Assembly: GCA_004297555.1 (NCBI GenBank)
Contig: SCSV01000286.1
Coordinates: 44,178-108,177 of the forward strand
DNA from: Salinibacterium sp.
GTDB lineage: Bacteria; Actinomycetota; Actinomycetes; Actinomycetales; Microbacteriaceae
DNA: 64,000 nt
Reading direction: 5' to 3'
The number at the start of each line of letters is the position of its first letter. Positions within the stretch are counted from its first letter, which is position 1. Below are positions 6,563 through 28,733 of the stretch, in pieces. The position numbers were made by a program, and so were the translations under genes. Below the pieces are notes generated by a model. It saw nothing but the letters and a program-made list of their open reading frames with translations. It did not search any database and was not told the DNA's origin.

Positions 6563-7816
6563 CTACTTCTCTGCCTGCTCGAACGGCACGACGATTTGGT
6601 TGTGCTCGAAGCCCATTTCGCGAAGGCGCATGACGATGCCCTCAGCGAAGTTCCATGCTCCGACGAGCACGGTGTCGACCGTGCCGCCTCCCTTCGCGTG
6701 ACGTTTGAGGTGGTCGACCCCCACCACCGGAAGTCCCGTACCCGGAGTGAACAGACCCTGCTTGAGCGGTGAGTCGTCCACCACGTAGGCGAAGTCGACG
6801 CCTTTGTTGAGCCCCAACCCGTACAGGAGCGTGGTGAGCTTCGCAGGTGCGCCGTAGATGACCACGCGCTTGCCCTCGAGCAACGAGCGCAGACGCTCGC
6901 GCTCCGCGTCCATTTTCTCTTTGAGCACGCCCCAGCTCATTGCCCAGTCGCGACGGGATTCGGTCTCGATGAAGTGGTAGACGCGAAAGTCTGGGTGAAG
7001 GTGAGGCCGCGTGGGAACTTCTCCAGACCGTTCGACCCACACGCGTAACGAGCCACCATGCGTCGGTACCAACTCAATGTCGACCACCGCCCATGGGGTG
7101 TGCTCGTGCAGGTGATTCACCAGCTCCGTGGCGCGCCAGTACGAAACGTGTTCATGGTAGGTCATGTCGAACATCCCGCCGTCGAGCAGCGAGCCCAGGT
7201 ACTGCACTTCGAACGCGCCAGCCTTCGCTCCGGTCAGCGCCAGCGCGTTCAACGTGCCCACGAAATCGTTGATGTGGGCGAGGACGTTGTTCGCGGTCCA
7301 GAAGTCCATGTTGAAGAGTCGACGCTCGTTGACGAGCTTCTCCGAGAAGAACCCGTGGCTGACGTTGAGCCCTTCCTTCAAGCATTGCTTGACGAGATTC
7401 TCGGCGGGCTCGACTCCGAAGACCTCCGCGCTCCTCGAGCACTTCGCCGCGTTGTACATCGCATGCAGCATCGTGCCGTCGTTCGAGCCGACTTCGAGGA
7501 AGCTGTTCGTATCCGGAAACCGCCGCACGATTTCCTCGGCGTACTCCTTGAAGTGTTGGCGGAACGATTGAGCCGTGCCGCTCGCGTACGCGTAGTTCTG
7601 AAACATCAGCTTGGGGTCAACAACAGTACCCAATTGATGGTGACCGCACCGCTCGCAGCAGTTGACGTCGAGCGGGAACTTCTCCAGCGCCACCGACTCC
7701 TCTCGCGTCTTCATGAACGAGTTCGCGAGAGGAGTCGGCGGTAGATGGAGTACGGCCGCCAGCTTGTCGTTGTTGCAGAGACGACACGTTGTGCGCTGGC
7801 GGTACTTCACGGTCAA
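6563..7816 (-). CDS. Class I SAM methyltransferase, sugar C-methyltransferase-like with N-terminal zinc motif
   Basis: CRLCNNDKLAAVLHLPPTPLANSF ... CCERCGHHQL; FLEVGSNDGTML. Confidence 0.75.
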   Translation of the reverse strand: MTVKYRQRTTCRLCNNDKLAAVLHLPPTPLANSFMKTREESVALEKFPLDVNCCERCGHHQLGTVVDPKLMFQNYAYASGTAQSFRQHFKEYAEEIVRRFPDTNSFLEVGSNDGTMLHAMYNAAKCSRSAEVFGVEPAENLVKQCLKEGLNVSHGFFSEKLVNERRLFNMDFWTANNVLAHINDFVGTLNALALTGAKAGAFEVQYLGSLLDGGMFDMTYHEHVSYWRATELVNHLHEHTPWAVVDIELVPTHGGSLRVWVERSGEVPTRPHLHPDFRVYHFIETESRRDWAMSWGVLKEKMDAERERLRSLLEGKRVVIYGAPAKLTTLLYGLGLNKGVDFAYVVDDSPLKQGLFTPGTGLPVVGVDHLKRHAKGGGTVDTVLVGAWNFAEGIVMRLREMGFEHNQIVVPFEQAEK

Positions 7817-8490
7817 GCCTCCTGCGGAGCGCCGGCAGTCGGGGTCTCAGCCGGAGGCGGAGGAGGCGGAGCCTCGGTGTTCACCGGCACGGGCACCTCG
7901 ACCTTCGGCAGCATCAGCGGCACGCTCAGCCGCACGAGGTCCTGCTCGTACTCGGTCGGCGTACGCGAGAGCCGGCCGAGCGTCAGGAAGATGGTGTCCT
8001 CCGGGAAGTACATCGCGTGCTCCATCTTCGGACCGGTGTACATCCCGTAGCCCTCCTGCACGATGAACTTTTCCGGCGTCTCGATGCTCCCGACCGGCCG
8101 CTCGTAGTACTCGATGCGGCCCTTCACCACGAAGCAGAGGTGAGCGTCCTCCTTGTGGTAGTGGTTCGCGCGCACCGTGTTCGCCTTCGAGGTGATGACG
8201 GCCACCGCGCCGACGGGCTCGTGGAGGACGTTCTGGATGAGACCGCGCTCGTCGACGTGCTTCAGGAAGCTGTCGAGCATGGGTGTGCCGGACGATTCGC
8301 GGTAGGCCTCGAGCCTCGCGAATGTCTTCGCCACGCGGTCGAGCACGATGGCGGAAGGAATCTCACGCTCACGCGCCTCTTTCGTGTACTTCATCCCCAT
8401 TGCGGGGTCGACCTTCTTCCCGCTGGCGAATCTCACCGGCTTCGCAGCCTTCTTCGCCCTCAACGTCTTCGCCTTCTTCTTCTTCGCCAT
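7813..8490 (-). CDS. Cupin-domain protein
   Basis: HYHKEDAHLCFVVKGRIEYYE ... GPKMEHAMYF. Confidence 0.65.
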   Translation of the reverse strand: MAKKKKAKTLRAKKAAKPVRFASGKKVDPAMGMKYTKEAREREIPSAIVLDRVAKTFARLEAYRESSGTPMLDSFLKHVDERGLIQNVLHEPVGAVAVITSKANTVRANHYHKEDAHLCFVVKGRIEYYERPVGSIETPEKFIVQEGYGMYTGPKMEHAMYFPEDTIFLTLGRLSRTPTEYEQDLVRLSVPLMLPKVEVPVPVNTEAPPPPPPAETPTAGAPQEA

Positions 8491-8610
8491 GTGCAGGCCC
8501 TCCAGGGTGTGCGCGATAAGCGCGTGGAGACGCAGTTGTTAAATGTCGGTGCGGAAATGTCAATCCACACGGCTCTAGACGCTGTCACTTTCCGTGTTAC
8601 CGTCCCGCGC

Positions 8611-9318
8611 ATGAGTCTCCTGCACAGCCTCAAGGTACGCATGAAGTACAGCAACCGTGTGAGAAAGGCCGCGGAGGAGATGCTCACCTATGTACGGCGG
8701 GGGGTCTCCTTCGAGATTCCGAACGGCAACATCAGCGACGCCACCACGCGAGCTGTGCTTTGCCTGCGCGAGACATACCCCGAGCAGGTCGAGGTCATGT
8801 ATCAGGCTCGCGGCATCATCATCGGACCGCTGAAGAAGGCCATGCAGAAGGTGGGTGAGGAAGGCTGGAAGAATCTCGAGAAGGGTCAGTACCTCCCATC
8901 GGCTCAGCTCGCACCCAACCACGAACGCTTCATCGACGACCAACACGCGTGGGCCGCGATGCAGGGTCTGAACAGGGACCAGGAGGCAGCCGAAGGCCAG
9001 CGTCGGCAGGCCGAGCGCGACCGGCTGGTGATGAGCGGAGAGGGTGTCCTCGCGGCGGAGCGCAACGCGGTGCCGAAGCGCGCGCTCACGCCGGAGGAAC
9101 TTCTCGACCGGGCTGCTGAGGCCGCGCTCCAGAAGAAGGCCATCGAGGACGAAGCCGCACGAAGAGCAAAGGTCGCCGCCAGCGGCGGTCCACTGCCGCG
9201 TGGTGGGGCTCAGCCGCGAGCTGCATTCATCGACGAGGCGACCTCGACCAGCCCGGCGACACCGCTGGAGCAGAAGGGTGCACCGTTGCCGAGCAACCCC
9301 AACATCACCGTGGAGTAA
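8611..9318 (+). CDS. Hypothetical virion-module protein
   Basis: ATG 8611; first gene of long + strand block. Confidence 0.5.
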   Translation: MSLLHSLKVRMKYSNRVRKAAEEMLTYVRRGVSFEIPNGNISDATTRAVLCLRETYPEQVEVMYQARGIIIGPLKKAMQKVGEEGWKNLEKGQYLPSAQLAPNHERFIDDQHAWAAMQGLNRDQEAAEGQRRQAERDRLVMSGEGVLAAERNAVPKRALTPEELLDRAAEAALQKKAIEDEAARRAKVAASGGPLPRGGAQPRAAFIDEATSTSPATPLEQKGAPLPSNPNITVE

Positions 9319-9321
9319 CGC

Positions 9322-11910
9322 ATGTCGAACGGGAACGAGGCCATCTGGGCTCCGGTGATGGAGCGGATGAAGCGGAGGCTTCAAGCCGGCGGCAAGGTCA
9401 TCGCTCTTGGCGCATTCATGAGCGCAAAGAGAGAAGCGCTTCCCATCTTCTCGGAGCTGAACTTCCTTCCAGAGAAGGGCACCTTCTCCCAAGCTGAGGT
9501 TGAATCGGCGCACGCGCTCTGTACGAAGGAACGTTGTGGCTCCGCAATTCGCGCGGGGCTCGCGAAGAAGTTCATCACCGCACTCCTGAGCGAGGTTCCA
9601 CTTGCGCCGGTCACCGATGAAGAGGTCGCCGAGGGCATCAAGAAAGGCGAAGCCGACCACGAGTCGAAAGTCGCCGCTCGACGTGCTGCGCGCGCAGATG
9701 AGAAGCACGCTGACCCTTCTCGCAGCGCTGTTGCTGGCGGGAATCCTCCAGGGCCCGACGACGTGGACGAAGAGGGTGAAGAGGAAGATGGGGAAGAGGT
9801 CGGCGAAGAAGAAGACGAAGACGATGGCGAGCAGCTCGACGGCGATGAGGACACGGACCCCGGTATCCCTTCGCACGCGCACGCGCGCCGGTCTCCTCCG
9901 CGACTGAGTGCTTTCGAGAAGGTGAATCGTGGAGCCGAGCGTGCAGCCGCGCGCACACAGCGCCACCACAGTGAGGATGCGATGAGCAACGAGAACGACG
10001 ACCAGTACGAAGGCCAGCACGACGAGGACGAGGTTGACGAGCAGGAGGAACAGCCGCCTTCGAAGCGCCCGCGCGCCCGCCAGCCTCCTCCGCAGGTCAT
10101 CGTCGTGCCGCAGGCTCCTCGTCAGAAGGCGCCTCGTAACTTGAACGCCGCGCCCCGCAACCGCTTCATCAAGAACAGCGACATGGTGCGCATCAGTAAG
10201 CGCATCGCTGGCGGCAAGCGCAGCCACATCGGCGACTACACCTCCGAGGACATCGGTCCCGGCATCTCGCTGCAGCAGTTCATCAAGGAGTACATCGACG
10301 AAGAGAACCGCGAGCCGGGCCGCACCGTCTACGAGGTGGTGCCACTCAACGGCAACGGCGACGAAATCGGGAGGCCGCAGCAGTACATCATCGAGAATCA
10401 GAGCTTTGCCGAGACGAACCCGAACGACCCGGTGGGGCAGGCGCGTAGCGTGCTCGACCTCTTCGCCGACCTGAAAGAGCAGGAGAACGAGAAGCAGTCG
10501 CAGAACTCCGAGATGCTCAAGGAGGCCCAGAAGAAAGCCATCGCGGGCGGCGACATGCAGGGCCTCTTCATGTTCATGATGATGAACCAGATGATGGACA
10601 GGCCCCGCGGAGGAATCGACGAGGCCGCCATCATCGCGAAGGTGCTCGACCGCCTCGGGCCGCAGCAGCAGCCGATGATGATGCCACCGCCTTTGCCGCC
10701 GGTGCAGATGGTTCCTCCGGCGCCAGCTCCTCTGGCTGGGGCAATGGAGCAGCTGGTGCAGGCGAGCATCGCTTCGATGCTGAAGCCCGACGCCCCGCCG
10801 CCGAGCCCCATTCAGCAGCTGAAAGACATGATGGAGCTGCAGACGCTCATGCAGAAGATGAGCGGGAGCGGTACCGACATGGCCACGGTGGTGAAGTTGC
10901 TGCTCGAGAAGCAGACGCCCGTGAAGCCGCCCGAAGTGGCTGGTGTCGACAACATGATGCTCACCTTCGAGAAGCTCACCACGATGGTGAAGGCACTGGC
11001 GCCGCAAATCAACCAGGGCGGATGGGCGGGCCCCATCCAGGGAATCTTCTCGCAGCCCGAGGTGCAGAAGGCCATCGCCAACATTCTCGGAGGCGTGACT
11101 GGACAGCCGGGTGCGGTCGCTCCGCAACTTCCGCCCGGCGCTCCAGGCGCGCAAACGGTGAATGGTCAGGCCGCGAACGCGAATGGGCAGGTGCAGCCAC
11201 AGCCTCAGCAACCCCAGCCCCAGCCCACGCCGCAGATGCGTGACGCTGCTAACGCGTTCCGCATCGCTCAGACGAAAGAGGTTCGCGTCGAGCGTCTGAT
11301 GCAGCTCATCCAGGTGATGTACCTCGCTGGGTACCAGCCCGTCATCGAGCCGGTTCTCACCGCGGCGCGTGACGGCAACATCGTTCCGGCGCAGCGCTTC
11401 CTCGCCACGCTCATCGCCGACATCGACCCGTCGAAAGTCACCGTCGACCTCATCAACGCGGTGCTGCGCGTGAGCGCGGGGCTCGCGGGTGAAGAGGGCA
11501 AGAAGATGATGGCCGCACTCGATGCGTCGGAGAAGGGCGAGACTCTGAAAGTGGAGGAGAAGAAGCCTGGAACTGTTGAGACGCCGAACGCGCAAGTCGT
11601 TCCCATCGCCGCGGCTCCTGCGCACGCGAACCATGCTGCGTACATGGCCCAGGTCGCGGAGCTGGAGCGGCAGAAGGAAGGAAAGAAGGATGGGGGTATG
11701 GCGACTCAACCGAGCGTCCCGCCGGCCGCGAACCCGCACGCGCCTGAAGTCGAAGTGAAGGAGAAGAAGGTGGTGGAGGCGAAGGTGGAGGTGGCGACCG
11801 AAGCGCAGACACCGAAGGTGGAAGCGCAGACGCCGTCGCAGACACCGCCGGCCGAGGTCATCAACTTCAACGAGAAGCCCGAGAAGCCAGCGGAGCAGAC
11901 CGCGCGCTGA
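9322..11910 (+). CDS. Large acidic, Pro/Gln-rich structural or scaffold-like protein (862 aa)
   Basis: Long ORF with DEEGEEEDGEEVGEEEDEDDGEQ and PQPQQPQPQP tracts. Confidence 0.6.
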   Translation: MSNGNEAIWAPVMERMKRRLQAGGKVIALGAFMSAKREALPIFSELNFLPEKGTFSQAEVESAHALCTKERCGSAIRAGLAKKFITALLSEVPLAPVTDEEVAEGIKKGEADHESKVAARRAARADEKHADPSRSAVAGGNPPGPDDVDEEGEEEDGEEVGEEEDEDDGEQLDGDEDTDPGIPSHAHARRSPPRLSAFEKVNRGAERAAARTQRHHSEDAMSNENDDQYEGQHDEDEVDEQEEQPPSKRPRARQPPPQVIVVPQAPRQKAPRNLNAAPRNRFIKNSDMVRISKRIAGGKRSHIGDYTSEDIGPGISLQQFIKEYIDEENREPGRTVYEVVPLNGNGDEIGRPQQYIIENQSFAETNPNDPVGQARSVLDLFADLKEQENEKQSQNSEMLKEAQKKAIAGGDMQGLFMFMMMNQMMDRPRGGIDEAAIIAKVLDRLGPQQQPMMMPPPLPPVQMVPPAPAPLAGAMEQLVQASIASMLKPDAPPPSPIQQLKDMMELQTLMQKMSGSGTDMATVVKLLLEKQTPVKPPEVAGVDNMMLTFEKLTTMVKALAPQINQGGWAGPIQGIFSQPEVQKAIANILGGVTGQPGAVAPQLPPGAPGAQTVNGQAANANGQVQPQPQQPQPQPTPQMRDAANAFRIAQTKEVRVERLMQLIQVMYLAGYQPVIEPVLTAARDGNIVPAQRFLATLIADIDPSKVTVDLINAVLRVSAGLAGEEGKKMMAALDASEKGETLKVEEKKPGTVETPNAQVVPIAAAPAHANHAAYMAQVAELERQKEGKKDGGMATQPSVPPAANPHAPEVEVKEKKVVEAKVEVATEAQTPKVEAQTPSQTPPAEVINFNEKPEKPAEQTAR

Positions 11911-14575: not shown

Positions 14576-15046
14576 GTGGACGAGCTGCCCAAGTGCCCAG
14601 GTGACGCTCCCCCGGTGGTGCGCCTCTCGCTGCGTCATGAGAAGTGCCCGCGCAAGGGCGTCGTTCGGCACTTGCGCACGCCAAACGACATCCACTCGTA
14701 CTTGAAGACCGAGTACGGATGCGAAGCGCAAGAGTGGGCGGTCGTCATTGGCCTGGGTTCCAACAACGCCATCCTCGGCATTCACGAAGTCGCCATTGGC
14801 GGGCTCGACTCGACGGTCGTAGACCCGCGAGTAGTGTTCGCCGGACTCCTTCTGATGGGCGCTGCAGCGTTTGTCTTCTGTCACAACCATCCAAGCGGCA
14901 GTACACAGCCGAGTACGTTGGACGTCACGATGACTCGCCAGCTCAAGGACGCCGGCAAGATTTTGGGAATCCGCATGGTCGACCACATCATCGTGAGCGG
15001 AACCGGCTACACCTCTTTCCTTGCAGAGGGAATGTTTCCATCGTGA
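14576..15046 (+). CDS. RadC/JAB-like domain protein
   Basis: FCHNHPSGSTQPSTLDVTMTRQL...GIRMVDHIIV. Confidence 0.8.
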   Translation: MDELPKCPGDAPPVVRLSLRHEKCPRKGVVRHLRTPNDIHSYLKTEYGCEAQEWAVVIGLGSNNAILGIHEVAIGGLDSTVVDPRVVFAGLLLMGAAAFVFCHNHPSGSTQPSTLDVTMTRQLKDAGKILGIRMVDHIIVSGTGYTSFLAEGMFPS

Positions 15047-16779
15047 CCCTCGACCAAGCCATCGCTTTGCTGCTCGGCGCCGGCTTCGGTGCGCGTGCAC
15101 TGGATGGGAGAAAAAACGCTCTCGCCCGCGTCGGTTACGCGCTGGTCGGCTACGACCTGCTCAAGACCGGAATCACCGGCCAGGGTTCCATCTTTGGTGC
15201 GCAGTCGAGCGGACTGGCGAAGGTGTCATCGTCCAGGGCGAAGTTGAAGTTCGAGGAGCGTCGGGTCCGAACCATCGCAGAGCGTGTTGCGTATGTGCAC
15301 GAGCAGATGGTGCTGGGCACCCGCGACCCTCAGGTCTACGCACTCGCTCGAGAAGTTGTCGCGCGAAAGTGCGGTGCAGAGTTCTGCATTCCGGAGAAGG
15401 ACCACAAGGGCGAGATGGCCGCGCTCTTCAACGAAGCTCGAGCCCGTTGCCGATACACGCTCGACCCTGTCGACTACGATGCGTTTCAGACGCCGGGCAA
15501 GACGCTGCAGCTCGCCAGCGGCGACTGCTTCGTGAAGGGCACGGTGGTACTCAAGAAAGGGCACGAGTTGGTACCGGTCGAGTCTCTCCGTCTCGGAGAC
15601 GAAATCTGGGGGCTCAATCGCTGGTCGAAGGTGATGAACACTTGGGAGAAGGGAGTGCTCCCGACGTGGAACATCCAGCTCAACAATGGCTCCGCGATGC
15701 GCTTGACTCCAGACCACAAGGTTTGGGTGTGGAAGTGCAAGGATGAGCACAAGGATGCGCGGTACGGAGGACAAGAGTGTTCGTGTCGCCTTGACAACCG
15801 AGAGTTGGTTCGCATCCGCGTGAGGGAACTTAAGTGTGGCATGGTGTTGCCGCAGCCGGAACGCATCCCGTTCGGTTCCGAAAAGATGGACCCAACTCGC
15901 GCGTACGTTGAGGGGCTCTACGTTTCTGACGGCTCATCGGCACACTCGAATACGTTCGAGATTGCCGGCCAAGACGGTTGTCCAAAAGAGGCGCAGAAGA
16001 AAGAAGTCGAGCGCATCTGCGCGGTGCTCGGAATTCCGACGAGGTGGTATCGGAAGTACATCACGGTGAAAGACAAAATCTGGACGCAGCGGATGAAGAC
16101 GATGGGTACGCGTGCGCCCAACAAGCGCGCCCTTTCCATCAACCTCGAAGAGGGCGGAGCACTCAATTTACTTCGCGGTATCATGGCCGATAGCGGGAAG
16201 AACAGCCAAGGTTTCGGCTCTACCTTCACCACTACTTCTCGCCAGCTTTGGCTTCAGACGCGCGTGCTACTCAAGATGGCTGGCAAAACAGCAAGCGAGC
16301 GCTACATCGTCGACCATGGCGGCCTCGGAGAGAATCCGATTTGGAGGTTGGGCATCCGAGGTGGCGGCCCGGCCGGCAATGCGTCCAAGCTCCTGCGCGT
16401 GAAGGACGTTGTTCGGGACAATGTCGAGAAGCCGTGCTTCGACATCGAGACGGATGACCACTACGTGTGGCTCCCAGAGGCCGACTGGACCACGAGCCAG
16501 TGCGACGATGAAGTGAGCTTGCTTGGCGCGATGCTGCGCAGTGTCGGCATTCCCGTGCGCAGTCGCATCTACCAGACGCAGGGCAACACGACTTGGAACC
16601 ACATCAACCTGATGGCCCAGGACCCAGGTACCGGCACGTGGCACTCTCTCGACCTCGCCGCGGTGGGTAAGCCGCCCGGCTGGGAGGTCCCGAAGCAGTA
16701 CATCATCAAGCAGCGTGACTTCGACGTTCTCGAGAAGGAAGTACCGCGTTTGTCTGCGGCGCTGAATGCGGTACCCTGA
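15043..16779 (+). CDS. Transglutaminase-like protein interrupted by an intein
   Basis: GTG start overlapping previous TGA; extein LQLASGD|CDDEVSLLGAMLRSVGIPVRSRIYQ...WNHINL. Confidence 0.75.
   Translation: MTLDQAIALLLGAGFGARALDGRKNALARVGYALVGYDLLKTGITGQGSIFGAQSSGLAKVSSSRAKLKFEERRVRTIAERVAYVHEQMVLGTRDPQVYALAREVVARKCGAEFCIPEKDHKGEMAALFNEARARCRYTLDPVDYDAFQTPGKTLQLASGDCFVKGTVVLKKGHELVPVESLRLGDEIWGLNRWSKVMNTWEKGVLPTWNIQLNNGSAMRLTPDHKVWVWKCKDEHKDARYGGQECSCRLDNRELVRIRVRELKCGMVLPQPERIPFGSEKMDPTRAYVEGLYVSDGSSAHSNTFEIAGQDGCPKEAQKKEVERICAVLGIPTRWYRKYITVKDKIWTQRMKTMGTRAPNKRALSINLEEGGALNLLRGIMADSGKNSQGFGSTFTTTSRQLWLQTRVLLKMAGKTASERYIVDHGGLGENPIWRLGIRGGGPAGNASKLLRVKDVVRDNVEKPCFDIETDDHYVWLPEADWTTSQCDDEVSLLGAMLRSVGIPVRSRIYQTQGNTTWNHINLMAQDPGTGTWHSLDLAAVGKPPGWEVPKQYIIKQRDFDVLEKEVPRLSAALNAVP
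15526..16500 (+). mobile_element. Intein 1 (325 aa) with LAGLIDADG endonuclease
   Basis: CFVKGTVVLKKGHELVPVESLRLGDEIW block A; LTPDHKVWV block B; YVEGLYVSDGS and LLRGIMADSG dodecapeptides; CFDIETDDHYVWLPEADWTTSQ|C. Confidence 0.85.
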
Positions 16780-16791
16780 AAGGACCTGCAC

Positions 16792-17289
16792 ATGGCACTC
16801 CTCGACACGAACAATCCACCGGCCGAAGTGCTCGCCGCCAACAGCGAGTTGATGATGGGAGAGGTGCGCAAGTGGCTCAATGACCTTGCGTGCGGCGACT
16901 TGAAAAACACTCCGGCGCTGCTGAACCCGTTGCTGCTGGGGTTGATTGCTCTGCGCCTCGGTCAGCTCGTCAACAACAAGGCGCAGGGGTCCAACTACTA
17001 CCGCATCTCGCCCTTTCAGCTCACCAAGGAGGGTCAGAAAATCGTCGAGCGCCAGCAAGACGGGCTGGTGCGCACTGTTCTGCTGTGGGTCGACAAGGCC
17101 GGCGCCGGCCCCACACCGTACATTCGGGTCGGTGTGAACAAGATGAACATGGTGGCCGGGCAGCAGGGCAGCGGTGGCATCCAGGCGGACGCCGGCAAGC
17201 AGCACGAGCTGGGCAACGTTCGACCTGAGGTGGAGCTGTGGGCGGCTTCCAGCGTCGACATCTGGACGTACGTCATCGAGTACGCGTGA
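16792..17289 (+). CDS. Hypothetical virion-module protein
   Basis: AGGACCTGCACATG start context; 165 aa ORF. Confidence 0.55.
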   Translation: MALLDTNNPPAEVLAANSELMMGEVRKWLNDLACGDLKNTPALLNPLLLGLIALRLGQLVNNKAQGSNYYRISPFQLTKEGQKIVERQQDGLVRTVLLWVDKAGAGPTPYIRVGVNKMNMVAGQQGSGGIQADAGKQHELGNVRPEVELWAASSVDIWTYVIEYA

Positions 17290-17299
17290 GGAGCCACTG

Positions 17300-19675
17300 A
17301 TGGCCGCGGTCACGAACAACATCGAGTCGCACAATGCGCGGGGCATCGAGCGCTCGGACGTGGTGGTCGACAGTGGAAATCTCCACGGTCTCGGCGCGGC
17401 CGCGGTGAATCAGGCGTCGCTCGCGAAGAGCCACACCATGCTGACGAAGTTCGTCTGGTTCCGCTCGATGCTCGAACGCGAGCTGCAGCTGCAGAGCTAC
17501 AAGCTGGTGAAGGAGGACGGCCTGTACCGGTTCGTCCTCACGCCTGGGCTGCGGAAGGAAGCCGTGCCGTGGCAGCGCTTCGCCGCCGAGCGGTACACGA
17601 AGGCGCTGCTCTGGGGAACGGACAACGCGAAGATGCAGTGCCCCACGTTCGCGATTCCGGCCGGCGGCGTGATGGTCGGCGGCACGTGCCCCGGTGCGGA
17701 CGCCGGTCAGACGGTCACGCCGGTGAACGCCCGCGTGGCGCGTCTCGAAGGCGCTGCAGACGGCTGGCACCTCCGCACCGAAGCACCGGGCACCGGCGTG
17801 AAGCCGCTGGTGAAGGAAGGGCTTGCCGTCTGCCAGAGCTGCGTGACCGCCGATGCGCTCGTTCTCGTCCGCAATCGCGGACTCGTCCCCATTGGAGAGC
17901 TGGTCAACGCCGGCATGGTGGAAGTGTGGAGCGGAAAGTCGTGGCAGAAGACGCATGCCGTGTTCAACGGCGTTCTGCCGACGTTCCTGGTGACACTGTC
18001 CGATGGGCGCACGATTCGCGCAACTGGAGACCACAACTTCATTCTCGCTGACAACTCTCGCGTTCGGGCCGATGAGCTTCAAGAGGGAGAAGCACTCCCG
18101 TGGGAACTTCCGGAGCCCGATGCATCGAACTTCGACGTGACGGGACGGCTGCCGCTCGTTCACCTTGAAGAGCAGCACTTCAACGAGAAGCGAGGCCAGC
18201 TCCCGACACAGTGGTCTCGTGAGTTGGGCCTCTGGCTCGGCTACATCATCGGGGACGGATGGTTCAACGGAAGCGTCAAGCATCCGACCATCGGCATTTG
18301 CGCGGCGGAGCAAGACCGCGGTGACCTCGACCACATCAACGCATTTGTGTCGAGGTGGACAGGTTCGGAAGCCGAGGTGAACGTCAGTGAGGTCGAACGT
18401 TCGAATGACCTCGTCACGTGCGAGACGCCACAGTCGATGGCGAAGGTTTTCTGGCGTCAGAAGTCGGCTGTGGCACTCGCGTTGGGGCTTGGGCTCAAGA
18501 AAGCCAAGGCGGACACGAGAACGCCGGAGTCCATCTGGTCGGCGCCGATGGATGCGGTTTCGGGCTATCTCTCCGGCCTTTTCTCCACTGATGGGAGCGT
18601 CGGCTTTCGAGGGCACGGAGTTGAGATTTCGTTCGCTTCAGTTTCGCGCACGCTCGTCGATGAGGTTCGACAGCTGCTCATCATGTTCGGCATCAAGTCG
18701 AGCTTGACGAAGTACAAGAGCAATGAGGAGCGCGGCTACCTTCCGTTATGGAAGGTCTCGCTGACTTGCCACGAGAGCATCATGCGCTTTCGGAAGCACG
18801 TCGGATTCTTCAATGAGCGCAAGTCGAAAAAGCTGGAAGCGTTCATCATCAGTCCGAAGTTCTCTCACCGTGAGCGCAAGACGAATGCGCACGTCGAGAG
18901 TGTCGTTCCTACCGGTAAACTCGAGCCAGTATTCGACCTCGTCAACGTCGGGCCTGAGCACCAGTTCACAGCCAACGGCATCAGCATTTCAAATTGCTAC
19001 GCGACCGAGGGCTCGTTCAGCCGGTCGAGTGTTCAAACGGATGAACTCGTACGCTTCTGGTGGATTCGCTCGCAGCTGCAGAACAAGAACGAGGCGCTAC
19101 TGGAGCAGGTCTTCGTCGACTCCATTCTCTCGCTGCCGTTCAAGCACGACCGCCACGGCATCAAGCCCATCCGCCTGCACGACTCGGGTGACTTCTTCTC
19201 ACAGAAGTACGCCGAGATGTGGCTGCGCGTTGCTGACGAGCTGGCGGTGCGGATGCCCGAGGTCGTCATCTGGGCTCCGACGCGCACGTGGGCACAGGGC
19301 GGGTGGACGGAGTTCTGGAACCAGCGGCTGCCGCGCTTGAAGAGCGTTCAGTTGGGAAGACGCCCCAACCTGATGGTGCGCCCCAGCGCGTACAACTTCG
19401 GAGACGCCGCGCCGGAAGCGATGGCGCAGGGGAACTCGCGCGGCTCGACGTCCCTCTACGCGGTGCACGCGCGCGTGCCGGCGGAGCTGAAGAACAGGAC
19501 GGACGCCACGAAGGTCGGCCTCACGCGAGGGCTCGAGCCACGCGCCGACTTCAACTGTCAGGTGTACGGAGCGGAGACGGCGTCGTGCACCGCTTCGCTC
19601 GCGCCGGATGGAAAGCGCGGCTGCCGCGCGTGCTGGGTTCACCCTGAGTTGAGGATTAATTATTCTGCTCACTAG
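17300..19675 (+). CDS. Gp88-like (mycobacteriophage gene product 88 family) protein interrupted by an intein
   Basis: GGTCPGADAG...KEGLAVCQS|CYATEG...IRLHDSGDFFSQKYAEMW. Confidence 0.7.
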   Translation: MAAVTNNIESHNARGIERSDVVVDSGNLHGLGAAAVNQASLAKSHTMLTKFVWFRSMLERELQLQSYKLVKEDGLYRFVLTPGLRKEAVPWQRFAAERYTKALLWGTDNAKMQCPTFAIPAGGVMVGGTCPGADAGQTVTPVNARVARLEGAADGWHLRTEAPGTGVKPLVKEGLAVCQSCVTADALVLVRNRGLVPIGELVNAGMVEVWSGKSWQKTHAVFNGVLPTFLVTLSDGRTIRATGDHNFILADNSRVRADELQEGEALPWELPEPDASNFDVTGRLPLVHLEEQHFNEKRGQLPTQWSRELGLWLGYIIGDGWFNGSVKHPTIGICAAEQDRGDLDHINAFVSRWTGSEAEVNVSEVERSNDLVTCETPQSMAKVFWRQKSAVALALGLGLKKAKADTRTPESIWSAPMDAVSGYLSGLFSTDGSVGFRGHGVEISFASVSRTLVDEVRQLLIMFGIKSSLTKYKSNEERGYLPLWKVSLTCHESIMRFRKHVGFFNERKSKKLEAFIISPKFSHRERKTNAHVESVVPTGKLEPVFDLVNVGPEHQFTANGISISNCYATEGSFSRSSVQTDELVRFWWIRSQLQNKNEALLEQVFVDSILSLPFKHDRHGIKPIRLHDSGDFFSQKYAEMWLRVADELAVRMPEVVIWAPTRTWAQGGWTEFWNQRLPRLKSVQLGRRPNLMVRPSAYNFGDAAPEAMAQGNSRGSTSLYAVHARVPAELKNRTDATKVGLTRGLEPRADFNCQVYGAETASCTASLAPDGKRGCRACWVHPELRINYSAH
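17840..18994 (+). mobile_element. Intein 2 (385 aa) with LAGLIDADG endonuclease
   Basis: CVTADALVLVRNRGLVPIGELV; ATGDHNFIL; LGLWLGYIIGDGWFNGS and YLSGLFSTDGSV; VFDLVNVGPEHQFTANGISISN|C. Confidence 0.9.
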
Positions 19676-19705
19676 CGACGCAGCACGGGTGCTACGCTGG
19701 CCGCT

Positions 19706-20200
19706 ATGCTCAAGAAGCACGAAGACGTGTCGTGGGTCGACGCTGCTCGATTCTGGGAGCGCGTCGAAAAAACTGATGGATGTTGGCTGTGGAAGGGCAA
19801 AGGACGTCGTGGGTCATCAACTGGTCCTCAGTACGGATGCTTTACTTTCCGTGGCGAACGGCGAGCCGAGACTTCCAACCGAGCCGCGTGGCGTGTCCAG
19901 AAAGGACCAATTCCGAAGGGGAAGTGCGTTCTTCACAAGTGTGACAACTCCATCTGCGTTCGTGGTTCTCACCTGTTTCTCGGAACGCGGACGGAAAACT
20001 CCGCCGACATGGTCAAGAAGGGACGACAGGCGAAGGGTACTGACAAGCCGAATGCGAAGCTCGACGAGCAACGGGTGCGCGACTTCCGGCGTCGACACAA
20101 GAACGGTGAATCGCCGACTGTCCTCGCGAAGGAAGCTGGGATGCACATCCGTTCGTTCTGGTCCGTTCTCCGTCGGGAGACGTGGGCATGGGTGATTTAA
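19706..20200 (+). CDS. HNH endonuclease (homing-type)
   Basis: CWLWKGKG...YGCFTFRG...CVLHKCDNSICVRGSHLFLGTRTEN. Confidence 0.85.
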   Translation: MLKKHEDVSWVDAARFWERVEKTDGCWLWKGKGRRGSSTGPQYGCFTFRGERRAETSNRAAWRVQKGPIPKGKCVLHKCDNSICVRGSHLFLGTRTENSADMVKKGRQAKGTDKPNAKLDEQRVRDFRRRHKNGESPTVLAKEAGMHIRSFWSVLRRETWAWVI

Positions 20201-22673: not shown

Positions 22674-23005
22674 TGAAGACCGGCGGCAAGGTGGCGTTGG
22701 GGATTGCGGCTGCCGGCGTGGCCGGCTTCGCGCTCTACTCGATTTTCAAGCGGCGCTCCTCTGGACTCATCCCCTCTGACCCCGCCGAGTGGTCGCTTCC
22801 CACCTTCACCACCACGCAGGAGTTCTTCACTCCGGCTCCTCCGCCTCCTCCGCCCACGACAGGGACGTGGCGCTTCGGTGTGGAAGTCATTCCCATCGTT
22901 CCGTCTTCCCTGAACTCGTCATGCACCTCGTCGCGGCAGTGCGGTGAGGGCACTGTCTGCATCAACGGGACGTGCCGTCCCGAAGCGGAGTGGAACGAGA
23001 GCTAG
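22673..23005 (+). CDS. N-terminal TM protein with Cys-rich tail
   Basis: VALGIAAAGVAGFALYSIFKRR; SSCTSSRQCGEGTVCINGTCRPE. Confidence 0.6.
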   Translation: MKTGGKVALGIAAAGVAGFALYSIFKRRSSGLIPSDPAEWSLPTFTTTQEFFTPAPPPPPPTTGTWRFGVEVIPIVPSSLNSSCTSSRQCGEGTVCINGTCRPEAEWNES

Positions 23006-23013
23006 GAGCCGTC

Positions 23014-23298
23014 GTGCGCGTGGTGAACGTGGTGAGACCAACCGACGGAATGGAGTTGCAGCTGCGGCTCTGCACTGGCGGGCTCGATTGCGTGCTGCCG
23101 CCGTTCTCGACTCCGTCGCGCGCGTTCAGCGGAGTCGGTACATTCATCACCGAGTGGGAAGAGAGCGCTCAGCGGGCCATGCAAGCGGAGCCGCTGTACT
23201 TCCGCAACTGGGACCGCGTGAAGACGACACTGCTCGTGGTCGTCAGCGGCGTACTCGCGTGGCAGCTCGTGAAGAAGCGGAAGACACTCTTCGATTGA
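23014..23298 (+). CDS. Tail-anchored small membrane protein
   Basis: C-terminal TTLLVVVSGVLAWQLVKKRKTLFD. Confidence 0.55.
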   Translation: MRVVNVVRPTDGMELQLRLCTGGLDCVLPPFSTPSRAFSGVGTFITEWEESAQRAMQAEPLYFRNWDRVKTTLLVVVSGVLAWQLVKKRKTLFD

Positions 23299-23914
23299 GA
23301 GCCTGCTCTTTTCGAGTTGCCCACTTCACATTGCCCGGTTCGTAGTTTCCGTCGTTGTTGATGCGCTCGATGGTGAGGTGAGGAGCTGGGCGCCGGCCAA
23401 CGTCGGAGAGGAAATCGTTGAACGAATTGAGCCAGCGGCGGCAAACCTTGATGCCGCGTCCACCGTAGTTCTCCCAGCTATCGGATTTCGGATTGGTACA
23501 GCGCTGCTTCATAGCTGTCCAGATGGCGTACTCCGGCATCTTTCGTACGCGCTTCCACTGATTGAGCCACGCTTGCCGTGCACAACCACAACTGGTCGTT
23601 CGTCCACCGAGCAGATTTGAGGGGTGGACCTTTCCCGTGCTGCCACAGTCGCAGACGCACATGATTTTGCCGTCGGGGCAAACGAATCTTGTCCACAACC
23701 GGCCAAACCGACGTCCCAAAATTGGGACCTTCTTCTCCAGTGGGGTAGAAATGTCCTTGCCAGACCACTGGCGGAGGTAGTGACCGTTGCACAGGCCTTT
23801 GGCTCTGACCGGCTTCGAACACTTCGGTGAGCAGGGGGCGGAACAGGTCACCATGTTTCTACCTATATCACCTTTCTGGTATACCGTGAAGAGCATCGCA
23901 CTCGTCGGGGTCAC
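23243..23914 (-). CDS. Zn-ribbon plus HNH-like homing endonuclease
   Basis: CVCDCGSTGKVHPSNLLGGRTTSCGC; YGGRGIKVCRRW...TIERINNDGNYEPGNVKWAT. Confidence 0.8.
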   Translation of the reverse strand: MTPTSAMLFTVYQKGDIGRNMVTCSAPCSPKCSKPVRAKGLCNGHYLRQWSGKDISTPLEKKVPILGRRFGRLWTRFVCPDGKIMCVCDCGSTGKVHPSNLLGGRTTSCGCARQAWLNQWKRVRKMPEYAIWTAMKQRCTNPKSDSWENYGGRGIKVCRRWLNSFNDFLSDVGRRPAPHLTIERINNDGNYEPGNVKWATRKEQALNRRVSSASSRAATRVRR

Positions 23915-23947
23915 CGCCGCACTCGTCTACGTTCTCGTTCGCAGGAA

Positions 23948-24382
23948 GTGAGAAAGTTCATCGTGCGCGACGACATCAACATCGACCCCGGAAACGTCCC
24001 ACGCCCGGCGGAGTCCCCTCGAATTCCGTCTCCGGCCGAAGAGAAGACTGACCCGGCGATGCGCGTCATTCGGGAGAAGATGCACAGCGAGTTGAACTGG
24101 CAGGGCGCGAAGCTCACCGCCGCGATGTGTGTGGTGGCCATCGGCACGGCATTCGGCGCGTACGCGTTCGTGATGAACTCCGCCTCTGCGCAGACCGATG
24201 CCGGACTCAAACCGCTCGCCGAGATTCAAAAGGCGCAGGACGCGCGCCTCACCACGCTCGAGAAACGTTTCGACCGCTTCGAGGAGCGCACCGACAAGCA
24301 GATGAACCTGCTGTTGGACGCTGCCCGCGTACCCGAGACGAAGAGACCAGCTCCGCTTCAGAAGGACGGCGGTGGGGAGTAG
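23948..24382 (+). CDS. Single-TM protein
   Basis: LTAAMCVVAIGTAFGAYAFVM. Confidence 0.55.
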   Translation: MRKFIVRDDINIDPGNVPRPAESPRIPSPAEEKTDPAMRVIREKMHSELNWQGAKLTAAMCVVAIGTAFGAYAFVMNSASAQTDAGLKPLAEIQKAQDARLTTLEKRFDRFEERTDKQMNLLLDAARVPETKRPAPLQKDGGGE

Positions 24383-25721: not shown

Positions 25722-26351
25722 ATGAACCAGATTGCGATTCCCACGAACAAGCCGGGTGAGGTCTACATCCCCGCGCTGGGCAAGACGTTCCAGCAAATCG
25801 AGCTGCGAGAGGACGATGTCTACGACACCATCCTCATCACGGCCGCGTCGCAGGCGAACCTCACCTACACGTTCTGGCGCGACGTGCAGAACAAGGACCT
25901 GCAGGACTGCAACCTCCCCAACCCGAGCCGCATCCAGTCGGGCGACGAGGTCGCCATCTTCCGCATCGGCGTGCACCCGCGCGAGGCCGTCGGCAACACG
26001 CTGCCGGTGTTCAACGACTACCGCAAGGTCGTCGCGGCGGCGCACCTCGAGGTCATCTTCAACCGCCGGCCCATCACCAGCGGGCCCATCATCAAGTACC
26101 CCTCGGGTCTCGGCATCGGTGGGTTCTCGGACGAGACCGGCGCCACCGCGGTCAGCATCGGTGTGCCCTCGGTCGCGGCGGCCCCGACCCTGTTCGTCCC
26201 GCAGCAGCTGAAGGACGACGACGACGTGAAGAGCAAGCTCCGCTTCCTCGCGGCGGACTGGATTTCGGGGTACGTGGCGCCGGTGACGGCGAACACGGTG
26301 CGCATGACCCTGTTCCTCCACGGCGTGATGAAGAACCCGCTCGGCAAGTAG
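25722..26351 (+). CDS. Candidate capsid protein 1 (209 aa)
   Basis: No TM; position at head of membrane-protein block; beta-rich appearance; no family assignment possible by eye. Confidence 0.4.
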   Translation: MNQIAIPTNKPGEVYIPALGKTFQQIELREDDVYDTILITAASQANLTYTFWRDVQNKDLQDCNLPNPSRIQSGDEVAIFRIGVHPREAVGNTLPVFNDYRKVVAAAHLEVIFNRRPITSGPIIKYPSGLGIGGFSDETGATAVSIGVPSVAAAPTLFVPQQLKDDDDVKSKLRFLAADWISGYVAPVTANTVRMTLFLHGVMKNPLGK

Positions 26352-26485
26352 TCCAGTCGGGAGTGCGCCGTCGGAGCAGAACACCGACGGCGCACCTCCC
26401 AAGCAGCACGCAGCACAGCGCGTAAGCGCAAACACTTTTCCGGGGTCGTCCCCACGGGGCCTGCCCCACAGCACCGGGAGCCTCG

Positions 26486-27067
26486 ATGCCGCCGAACCAA
26501 AACCCCTACTGCCCCGCGCCGGGGGAGCCGGCTCCTCCGGCAGGCCGTATCGCCTCCTTCCTCCAGGAGGCGCTCGACCTGTCGCCGGCCATCGTTCGCG
26601 GTGTCGGCGTCACGATGAGCGCGGCGCTCACCACGGCCACCACGACAGGCAGCTCGAAGTACAAGGTGCCGGCCGACCAGGAGCTGGTGGTGTTCGCACT
26701 GAGCGGCTTTCTCAAGTTCGCCGCGCTCAGCTCTGAGCCCACGGCCATCCTCGGGTGGCTGAACCTCGACCCGTCGGAGCGCTGGTTCGTGAAAAGCCAG
26801 AACTGCAACGTCGGGCTCAAGAACACCGACCGCTCACTCGATGTCTTCGATGGCGATGGCGTGGTTCCCATGTCTGCCATCACCCCTCCGGTGGGTACGC
26901 CCATGTACTGGCACCCTGAGGCACCGAACATCTTCAACGCGGGTCACACACTCCAGGCGACGTTCACCCTCGGAGACACGACGGCCGCTGTCGTGGGCAC
27001 GGCCGGCAACAGCACGACGTACGGGCTGCTGCTGACAGGCAACCTGATTCCGAACCGGAACCGCTGA
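26486..27067 (+). CDS. Candidate capsid protein 2 (193 aa, beta-rich)
   Basis: Alternating beta-like segments YKVPADQELVVFALSGFLKF...HTLQATFTLGD; follows candidate 1. Confidence 0.4.
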   Translation: MPPNQNPYCPAPGEPAPPAGRIASFLQEALDLSPAIVRGVGVTMSAALTTATTTGSSKYKVPADQELVVFALSGFLKFAALSSEPTAILGWLNLDPSERWFVKSQNCNVGLKNTDRSLDVFDGDGVVPMSAITPPVGTPMYWHPEAPNIFNAGHTLQATFTLGDTTAAVVGTAGNSTTYGLLLTGNLIPNRNR

Positions 27068-27078
27068 GAGGAGCACGT

Positions 27079-27762
27079 GTGGCCAACGGGCTCTCCATCA
27101 ACGGTGTCGTCCAGCCCGTAGGCTTCGGGCTGGGCAGTGTCGTGACGTGGTCGAGCGGCGGCGTGCCCAACACGTACATGAGCGTGTTTGCCACGCGAAC
27201 CGGATGGAAGTTCGATTCTGGCAACGCGGCGCTCAAGTCGCTATGCCAGGGAGAGCTGATTCCGCGCGTGGGGAGCCCGAGCGCGTTTGCCCCGGCGAAC
27301 ACCTGCGGCATCGATGGCTCGATGGCGTGCAACTACGGCTCACCGGAGAGCGCGCTCAGTGGGCTGGGTGGGTTGGGAGCTGCGTTCTGCACCCCGCTCA
27401 ACGATGCTCTTCGAGAGTTGCAGAACATCAAGGTGACGTCGTACGACCGCTTGAGCAGTGCTTCGCAGGCATCGCTCGATGCGGTACTCGAAGACCTCGG
27501 TGGCTTTGCGGTGTACGTGCCGTTCCTCGGCAATGAATGTGAGCGTCACACCGCCGAGGTTCGAGCGATGGTGCAGAGTCTACGTGGTGAGCTGGGTGCC
27601 GCTGCACCACCCCCGCTGCGCCCGGGCGTCGACGCGGGCGGTGAGCCGAGCGGTATGCAGACCTGGATGAAGGTCGCCATCGGCATCGGTATCGGTGCCG
27701 TTGCACTTGGTGCGCTCGGTTATTCGGCAGGGAACCTCGCGCGGCTTTTCAGGGGGCGCTGA
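27079..27762 (+). CDS. Tail-anchored virion-module protein
   Basis: C-terminal KVAIGIGIGAVALGALGYSAGNLARLFRGR. Confidence 0.6.
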   Translation: MANGLSINGVVQPVGFGLGSVVTWSSGGVPNTYMSVFATRTGWKFDSGNAALKSLCQGELIPRVGSPSAFAPANTCGIDGSMACNYGSPESALSGLGGLGAAFCTPLNDALRELQNIKVTSYDRLSSASQASLDAVLEDLGGFAVYVPFLGNECERHTAEVRAMVQSLRGELGAAAPPPLRPGVDAGGEPSGMQTWMKVAIGIGIGAVALGALGYSAGNLARLFRGR

Positions 27763-28733
27763 TGCGAAACCTCACCACCCTCGAGCGGCAGCTTCGCGAA
27801 GACGCCACTCTCGACGTCACCGCGCGACAGGCTGCACTCGTCGCCGTCGACGACATGATGCGCGCCGCGACGCGAGCCGGTGCTCTGCTCTCTCAGGCGC
27901 GCGTGGCGAACGTTGCAGCGGCCACCCATCCGAATTCTCCGGCTGCGCAGAACCGGGCAGCTCTAGCGCGTGCGGCGTACGAGGAGCGCACCAACGCGGA
28001 AGTCGCGAAGTACCGCGCCGTGTACGCGCTGCTCGCGGAGATGCACGGGCAGGAAGGCGTGGGTGCGTCGCAGATGGCGCAGCAGGCGATGGATGCCCAA
28101 GCGCAGCGTCCGTTCGTCGCGGCGGCGAAACACCACGGCAAGGTGCGCGACCTGATGCTGCAGGCGAGTGCTGCCGCTGGAAAAGCGCTCAAGATGGTGC
28201 CGCCCCTCCCGTACGACGTTGCGCCGATGGCTCGCATTGGGCCCGAGGCAAACGTCGCGCAGGGTCACTCTACTGAGCTGCTCGCGCAGCCTACCTTCGG
28301 CTGGCGACCGAAGAAGTACAGCGAGCTGATGGGCGACTTTTTCCCCATGAACTACCGGCTGGCCGCTGGTGCTCTGAGTGGGGTCCATGGCGTCTCTGTC
28401 GGCTCGCAGTTCGGAACCGCCGATGCGACGGCGAACATGCCGACCGGCGAGAGCTGGTGGAACTCGCTGCAGAAGGCCATCGGCTACGGCGCCAAGGCGG
28501 CTGGCGAGGCAGCGACCGCAGAGGGGCAGAAGAAGGCGGAGCAGGACCCCACCGGTGCCGGCGTGCTGCAGACTGGCGGCAACATCCTCAACGTCTTGTC
28601 CGCCATGCTGGGAGCTGGCGTCGACCAGGGGATGCAGCAGCCCACTCCGGCACAGACGGATTGGGGCAGCGTGGCACTGGTGGTGGGCGGGCTCGCGTTG
28701 GGCGGGTTCGCTTTGTGGAAGCTGACGCAGTGA
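27762..28733 (+). CDS. Tail-anchored virion-module protein
   Basis: C-terminal VALVVGGLALGGFALWKLTQ. Confidence 0.6.
   Translation: MRNLTTLERQLREDATLDVTARQAALVAVDDMMRAATRAGALLSQARVANVAAATHPNSPAAQNRAALARAAYEERTNAEVAKYRAVYALLAEMHGQEGVGASQMAQQAMDAQAQRPFVAAAKHHGKVRDLMLQASAAAGKALKMVPPLPYDVAPMARIGPEANVAQGHSTELLAQPTFGWRPKKYSELMGDFFPMNYRLAAGALSGVHGVSVGSQFGTADATANMPTGESWWNSLQKAIGYGAKAAGEAATAEGQKKAEQDPTGAGVLQTGGNILNVLSAMLGAGVDQGMQQPTPAQTDWGSVALVVGGLALGGFALWKLTQ

Follow-up and report, generated by a model that had tools for sequence, protein, structure and literature searches.

The stretch of DNA analysed here (64,000 nt, in the following called the window) carries at 15526-16500 on the forward strand an insert that we, with high confidence, regard as a mobile class 1 intein with a LAGLIDADG endonuclease, seated at the codon for the catalytic Cys in a transglutaminase-like protein that is probably part of the virion; the virus, with 108 kb of circular or terminally redundant DNA, is probably tailless. 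We base this reading of the insert on the anatomy and exact site of the insert, its predicted fold, and homologs with and without it. The evidence is good that the family has here a new member, at a host site new for inteins; as an intein it is mobile and rather ordinary, and it is the host protein that is unusual.

The host CDS (15043-16779, +) is open throughout, and its GTG start overlaps the stop codon of a RadC-like gene as GTGA. The insert amounts to exactly 325 codons, in frame, between GD and CDD; it separates an N-extein of 161 aa (15043-15525, +) from a C-extein of 92 aa plus stop (16501-16779, +) that begins with the catalytic Cys(+1), and its excision joins LQLASGD to CDDEVSLLGAMLRSVGIPVRS. 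With the insert removed, the Pfam score for Transglut_core (PF01841) rose from 24.6 to 33.4 bits, against a curated cut-off of 23 bits, and the match crosses the junction GD/CDD (the slash marks the splice point), which bears out the claim of an earlier note on this DNA that the insertion falls right at the catalytic Cys of a transglutaminase-like domain. The triad His and Asp lie in the C-extein, in WNHINLM and WHSLDLA; the score above cut-off together with the complete Cys-His-Asp triad makes the joined extein a member of PF01841, and Cys, His and Asp/Glu are kept in all 12 aligned homologs.

The insert itself has the Hint fold of a class 1 intein with blocks A, B, F and G, all features being on the forward strand. 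Block A, CFVKGTVVLKKGHELVPVESLRLGDEIWG (15526-15615), opens with the nucleophile Cys1, which is invariant, and both Cys1 and Cys+1 are found in 6/6 alleles. Thr61 and His64 of block B, NNGSAMRLTPDH (15682-15717; Thr61-x-x-His64), are invariant in the five close alleles and retained in the distant allele L050, and Asp306 and His312 of block F, PCFDIETDDHYVWL (16432-16473), are invariant as well. Between blocks B and F lie two LAGLIDADG motifs, YVEGLYVSDG (15904-15933) with Asp135 and LLRGIMADSG (16168-16197) with Asp222, both Asp being invariant in the five close alleles; the first falls in a LAGLIDADG_3 match with an I-DmoI-like predicted fold. The two motifs with their catalytic Asp and the modelled paired fold indicate a LAGLIDADG endonuclease. 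The intein ends in Ser324-Gln325 at the C-terminal splice junction DWTTSQ/C (16483-16503), which aligns with TVSQ/C, TVSN/C and VVHN/C of its relatives. A class 3 intein, which would have no Cys1, a Trp-Cys-Thr triplet and a Cys in block F, was considered and rejected, as Cys1 is present and block F has Asp306. Further, the cysteines C71, C85-x-C87, C152 and C165 (15736-15786 and 15979-16020) are common to four of the six alleles and may be a metal site or redox pair; the L038 allele is without C71 and the CxC cysteines.

The window intein matched the Pfam families Intein_splicing (E = 0.0025) and LAGLIDADG_3 (E = 0.0035) below their curated cut-offs, so that the window sequence alone is only suggestive. 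AlphaFold2 run on the five close alleles, an alignment of only five sequences, gave a mean pLDDT of 70, with the last 15 residues below 50; a single-sequence model of the whole precursor (pLDDT 35) was left out. In a Foldseek search against the PDB, the predicted fold was best matched by full inteins with homing endonucleases, TliVMA (4.5e-15), PhoVMA (3.6e-11) and PI-SceI (2e-11), followed by I-DmoI (3e-6) and a hedgehog autoprocessing domain (1.6e-4). The profile of the five alleles found the Prp8 intein among PDB sequences at 8e-5.

In four IMG/VR contigs (L015, L025, L026 and L038) the same position is taken by a homologous intein, with 53-55% identity to that of the window. L015, from a scan of viral contigs, is full-length and 51% identical in its best segment, with the insert in the same place as GD/C...VTVSQ/CDD; L025, L026 and L038, which end in TVSN/CDD, were found by scans with alignments of the growing intein family. 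A DNA-pattern scan added the distant L050 intein (IMGVR_UViG_3300035701_000082), 37% identical and in another transglutaminase-like gene, as GD/CLTADT...VVHN/CED. This intein scores 47.7 bits against the Intein_splicing cut-off of 35.8, and since the match reaches the last position of the Pfam profile it settles where the inteins of the whole family end, WTTSQ falling in the place of VVHN. Five homologous inteins occupy this site or its cognate, one of them scores above the Pfam cut-off, and the structural match agrees, so the window intein is not a chance resemblance, and the claim that 15526-16500 is an intein stands. L039 (terminase intein) and L040 (PolA intein) matched over the N-terminal ~68 residues only and were rejected as alleles. 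A scan of GTDB with the intein alignment found no further members.

Seven virus homologs run uninterrupted through the junction: gp34 of Salisaeta icosahedral phage 1 (SSIP-1), and L041 and L043-L047, which were picked up by scanning viral contigs with a profile. The joined extein as sole query gave nothing above threshold among phages, viral contigs or GTDB contigs; the transglutaminase-like homologs needed core-domain and profile searches. SSIP-1 gp34, annotated as 'structural protein', aligns without gap through ADCDG where the window has GD/CDD, and tblastn of the whole phage collection found it across the junction at E = 1e-3 with the window domain and 2e-6 with the L038 extein. The filled L026 and the empty L044 are orthologs with exteins 61% identical, which differ by exactly one intein at DCDD and have related neighbour genes on both sides. 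The earlier note had named insert-free homologs that fail to align across GD/CDD as evidence against an intein; all seven align there.

The inteins of the first four alleles are 50-60% identical, compared with 21-33% for the exteins. Differences at the three codon positions of the intein are ~0.35/0.31/0.63, third positions thus differing at roughly double the rate of the other two, which points to selection at the protein level, and the splicing and endonuclease residues are invariant across the five close alleles. Homing is expected to give a patchy presence at one site, flanked by conserved DNA at the catalytic codons, as is the case here, and we suggest from these sequence patterns that the intein homes. 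The same difference in identity could also arise if the intein were more strongly constrained than its host.

For splicing, Cys1 would attack the Asp-Cys peptide bond (N-S shift), the N-extein would be taken over by Cys+1, and Gln325 would then cyclise and release the intein, a step that as a rule is slower than with Asn and that here would proceed without a penultimate His, perhaps assisted by His312 of block F. The ligated product would have its GD-CDD active site intact. As the insert splits the active site, the precursor is presumably enzymatically inactive before splicing, and because Gln in the last position usually slows the final step, the precursor may persist. The endonuclease would recognise and invade empty alleles. 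The GDCDD codons are conserved between viruses, so empty alleles would be recognisable and open to invasion, and this would explain the position of the intein, not a regulation by it.

Class 1 inteins have a C-terminal Asn (Gln or Asp being tolerated) and usually a penultimate His. The penultimate residue is Ser in 5/5 close alleles and the last residue Gln in 2/5 and Asn in 3/5; with L050 included the last residue is Gln in 2/6 and Asn in 4/6, and the penultimate Ser in 5/6 and His in 1/6. The C-terminal Gln without penultimate His reported earlier is real, as Ser-Gln also ends the intein of the independent contig L015. Its description as unusual holds for the combination, of which we found no other example in the literature searched, and not for the two traits, which are both documented in functional inteins (PMC4031507, PMC5050341). 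Functional inteins ending in Gln include the slow P. abyssi and M. marisnigri Pol II inteins, Gln serves better than Asn in the Chilo iridescent virus RNR intein, and the penultimate His is absent from about 5% of functional inteins (PMC4031507). The mycobacteriophage RDF intein splices with a penultimate Gly and does so worse with His (PMC5050341). With such exceptions known in working inteins, the Ser-Gln end does not exclude class 1 membership. In an intein tree of five tips the two Gln alleles are apart, with a split supported at 96%, so that Gln may have arisen twice among the alleles; support falls to 78% when the distant L050 is included, and we place no weight on this.

The same C-terminus could be taken for that of a degenerate remnant, in which the loss of the Asn, with Gln in its place and Ser in that of His, has abolished splicing and left a dead host gene or a cleaved two-piece protein. 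We find this improbable, since the frame is open with all other catalytic residues kept, purifying selection acts between alleles, the identical Ser-Gln occurs in the independent L015, the extein triad is intact, and a terminal Gln does not keep the inteins of Chilo iridescent virus RNR and P. abyssi Pol II from splicing (PMC4031507).

A more elaborate reading lets the intein splice conditionally, slow Gln cyclisation or a signal (metal or redox) enabling the virus to keep the particle enzyme switched off up to assembly or entry. The insertion does divide the catalytic centre, Gln-ended inteins such as that of P. abyssi Pol II are slow (PMC4031507), the penultimate Ser with Gln or Asn could have a similar effect, and the cysteines common to four alleles could bind metal or be redox-sensitive. 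Yet the seven homologs without intein, including the empty ortholog L044 and SSIP-1 gp34, show that it is optional in the family, 4/6 alleles end in Asn, and L038 is without C71 and the CxC cysteines. Further, unrelated enzymes encoded on this contig are interrupted by at least four more intein-like insertions, suggesting a general invasion rather than tailored control. Inteins normally sit at active-site codons, so the position itself is the usual one, and we do not uphold the 'maturation switch' proposed earlier; control of this kind seems quite unlikely to us. Least credible is an autoprocessing domain of the hedgehog or BIL type, whose action would be cleavage or modification instead of splicing. 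The Hint fold is common to hedgehog and BIL domains, but here it comes with a LAGLIDADG endonuclease and Cys+1, the C-extein completes a known domain, and the empty alleles match exactly.

A mobile class 1 intein is the preferred reading, and among its closest known counterparts is the L050 intein, which is homologous (37%) and sits at the cognate GD/C(E)D site of a transglutaminase-like gene, but is 295 aa long with canonical penultimate His and Asn, on a contig that encodes a tail protein (PHROG 1887). VMA inteins end in His-Asn. The VMA-type inteins TliVMA and PI-SceI share the Hint domain, the two-motif LAGLIDADG endonuclease and the class 1 residues with the window intein, but have another host protein, are 13-16% identical to it and differ from its Ser-Gln. 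The Gln-terminated inteins of Chilo iridescent virus RNR and P. abyssi/M. marisnigri Pol II share the last residue, in unrelated hosts (PMC4031507), and the mycobacteriophage RDF intein is also a phage class 1 intein without penultimate His, but with Gly there and in another host protein (PMC5050341). Most of the inteins in the literature consulted are found in enzymes of DNA and nucleotide metabolism, whereas the present one is in a transglutaminase-like protein that is structural in a relative; in the open-access literature searched no intein in a phage transglutaminase was described. The catalytic Cys codon is repeatedly occupied in divergent viruses, with empty sites for comparison, and the ends His-Asn, Ser-Asn and Ser-Gln, all occurring naturally at one site, form a series that may tell how an intein manages when the usual catalytic pair is missing.

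The window makes up bases 44178-108177 of the 108,177-bp contig C62, which is binned into a fragmented 2.25-Mb genome. Both ends of the contig (1-108177) carry the same 100 bp as an exact direct repeat. The element is therefore probably complete, and circular or terminally redundant; we consider it probably a complete viral genome, mistakenly binned in a bacterial one. It encodes HerA/FtsK-type ATPases, one of which matches a PHROG packaging family, and a run of small proteins each with a single hydrophobic segment. No tail gene turned up in the scanned part of the gene set, and the virus is probably tailless. By analogy the transglutaminase-like protein is probably a virion protein, as its uninterrupted homolog SSIP-1 gp34 is annotated as structural, and the 'virion module' of the earlier note is in this sense supported by homology. 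SSIP-1 gp34 shares the domain, with catalytic motif ADCDG, but is 21% identical over it, has no intein and carries a C-terminal hydrophobic segment. In L015, L038 and SSIP-1 (gp33) the gene immediately upstream of that for the transglutaminase-like protein encodes a large Pro/Gln-rich protein; the window has a similar one (9322-11910) ~3 kb upstream.

Intein-like insertions on the contig number five in 108 kb, the other four all being in enzymes (GP88-like, PolA, DinG/XPD-like and UDG-like). The one in the GP88-like protein (window 17840-18994) is a second intein of 385 aa, CQS/C...ISISN/CYATEG, with a LAGLIDADG_3 score of 58 bits. The three further insertions lie outside the window, on the reverse strand at 19244-20077, 22963-24171 and 27704-28570 of the contig; the junctions read GRL/C...SHN/SGSDPN in the PolA-like polymerase, GRSNR/C...AGN/SESD in the DinG/XPD-like helicase and IPF/C...VVHN/CGRSG in the UDG-like protein. 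This looks like an intein-rich virus with inteins settling at conserved codons, and the findings suggest a small lineage of intein-rich viruses whose relation to SSIP-1 extends to at least the transglutaminase-like protein. In L038 a neighbouring class II ribonucleotide reductase gene (6946-10188) has a small intein-like insert ending in IVTGQ/CQEY, the second case of a Gln-terminated intein, here in a related virus and with Gly as the penultimate residue.

Searches with the neighbour proteins at 16792-17289 and 25722-26351 of the window gave no viral relatives. The latter has a very high GC3 (0.95) and no database match, and is by codon bias only a candidate capsid protein. Just 3' of the GP88-like gene a small protein (window 19706-20200) resembles HNH-type endonucleases by sequence, and it has relatives at 26443-27174 of the contig and in L047.
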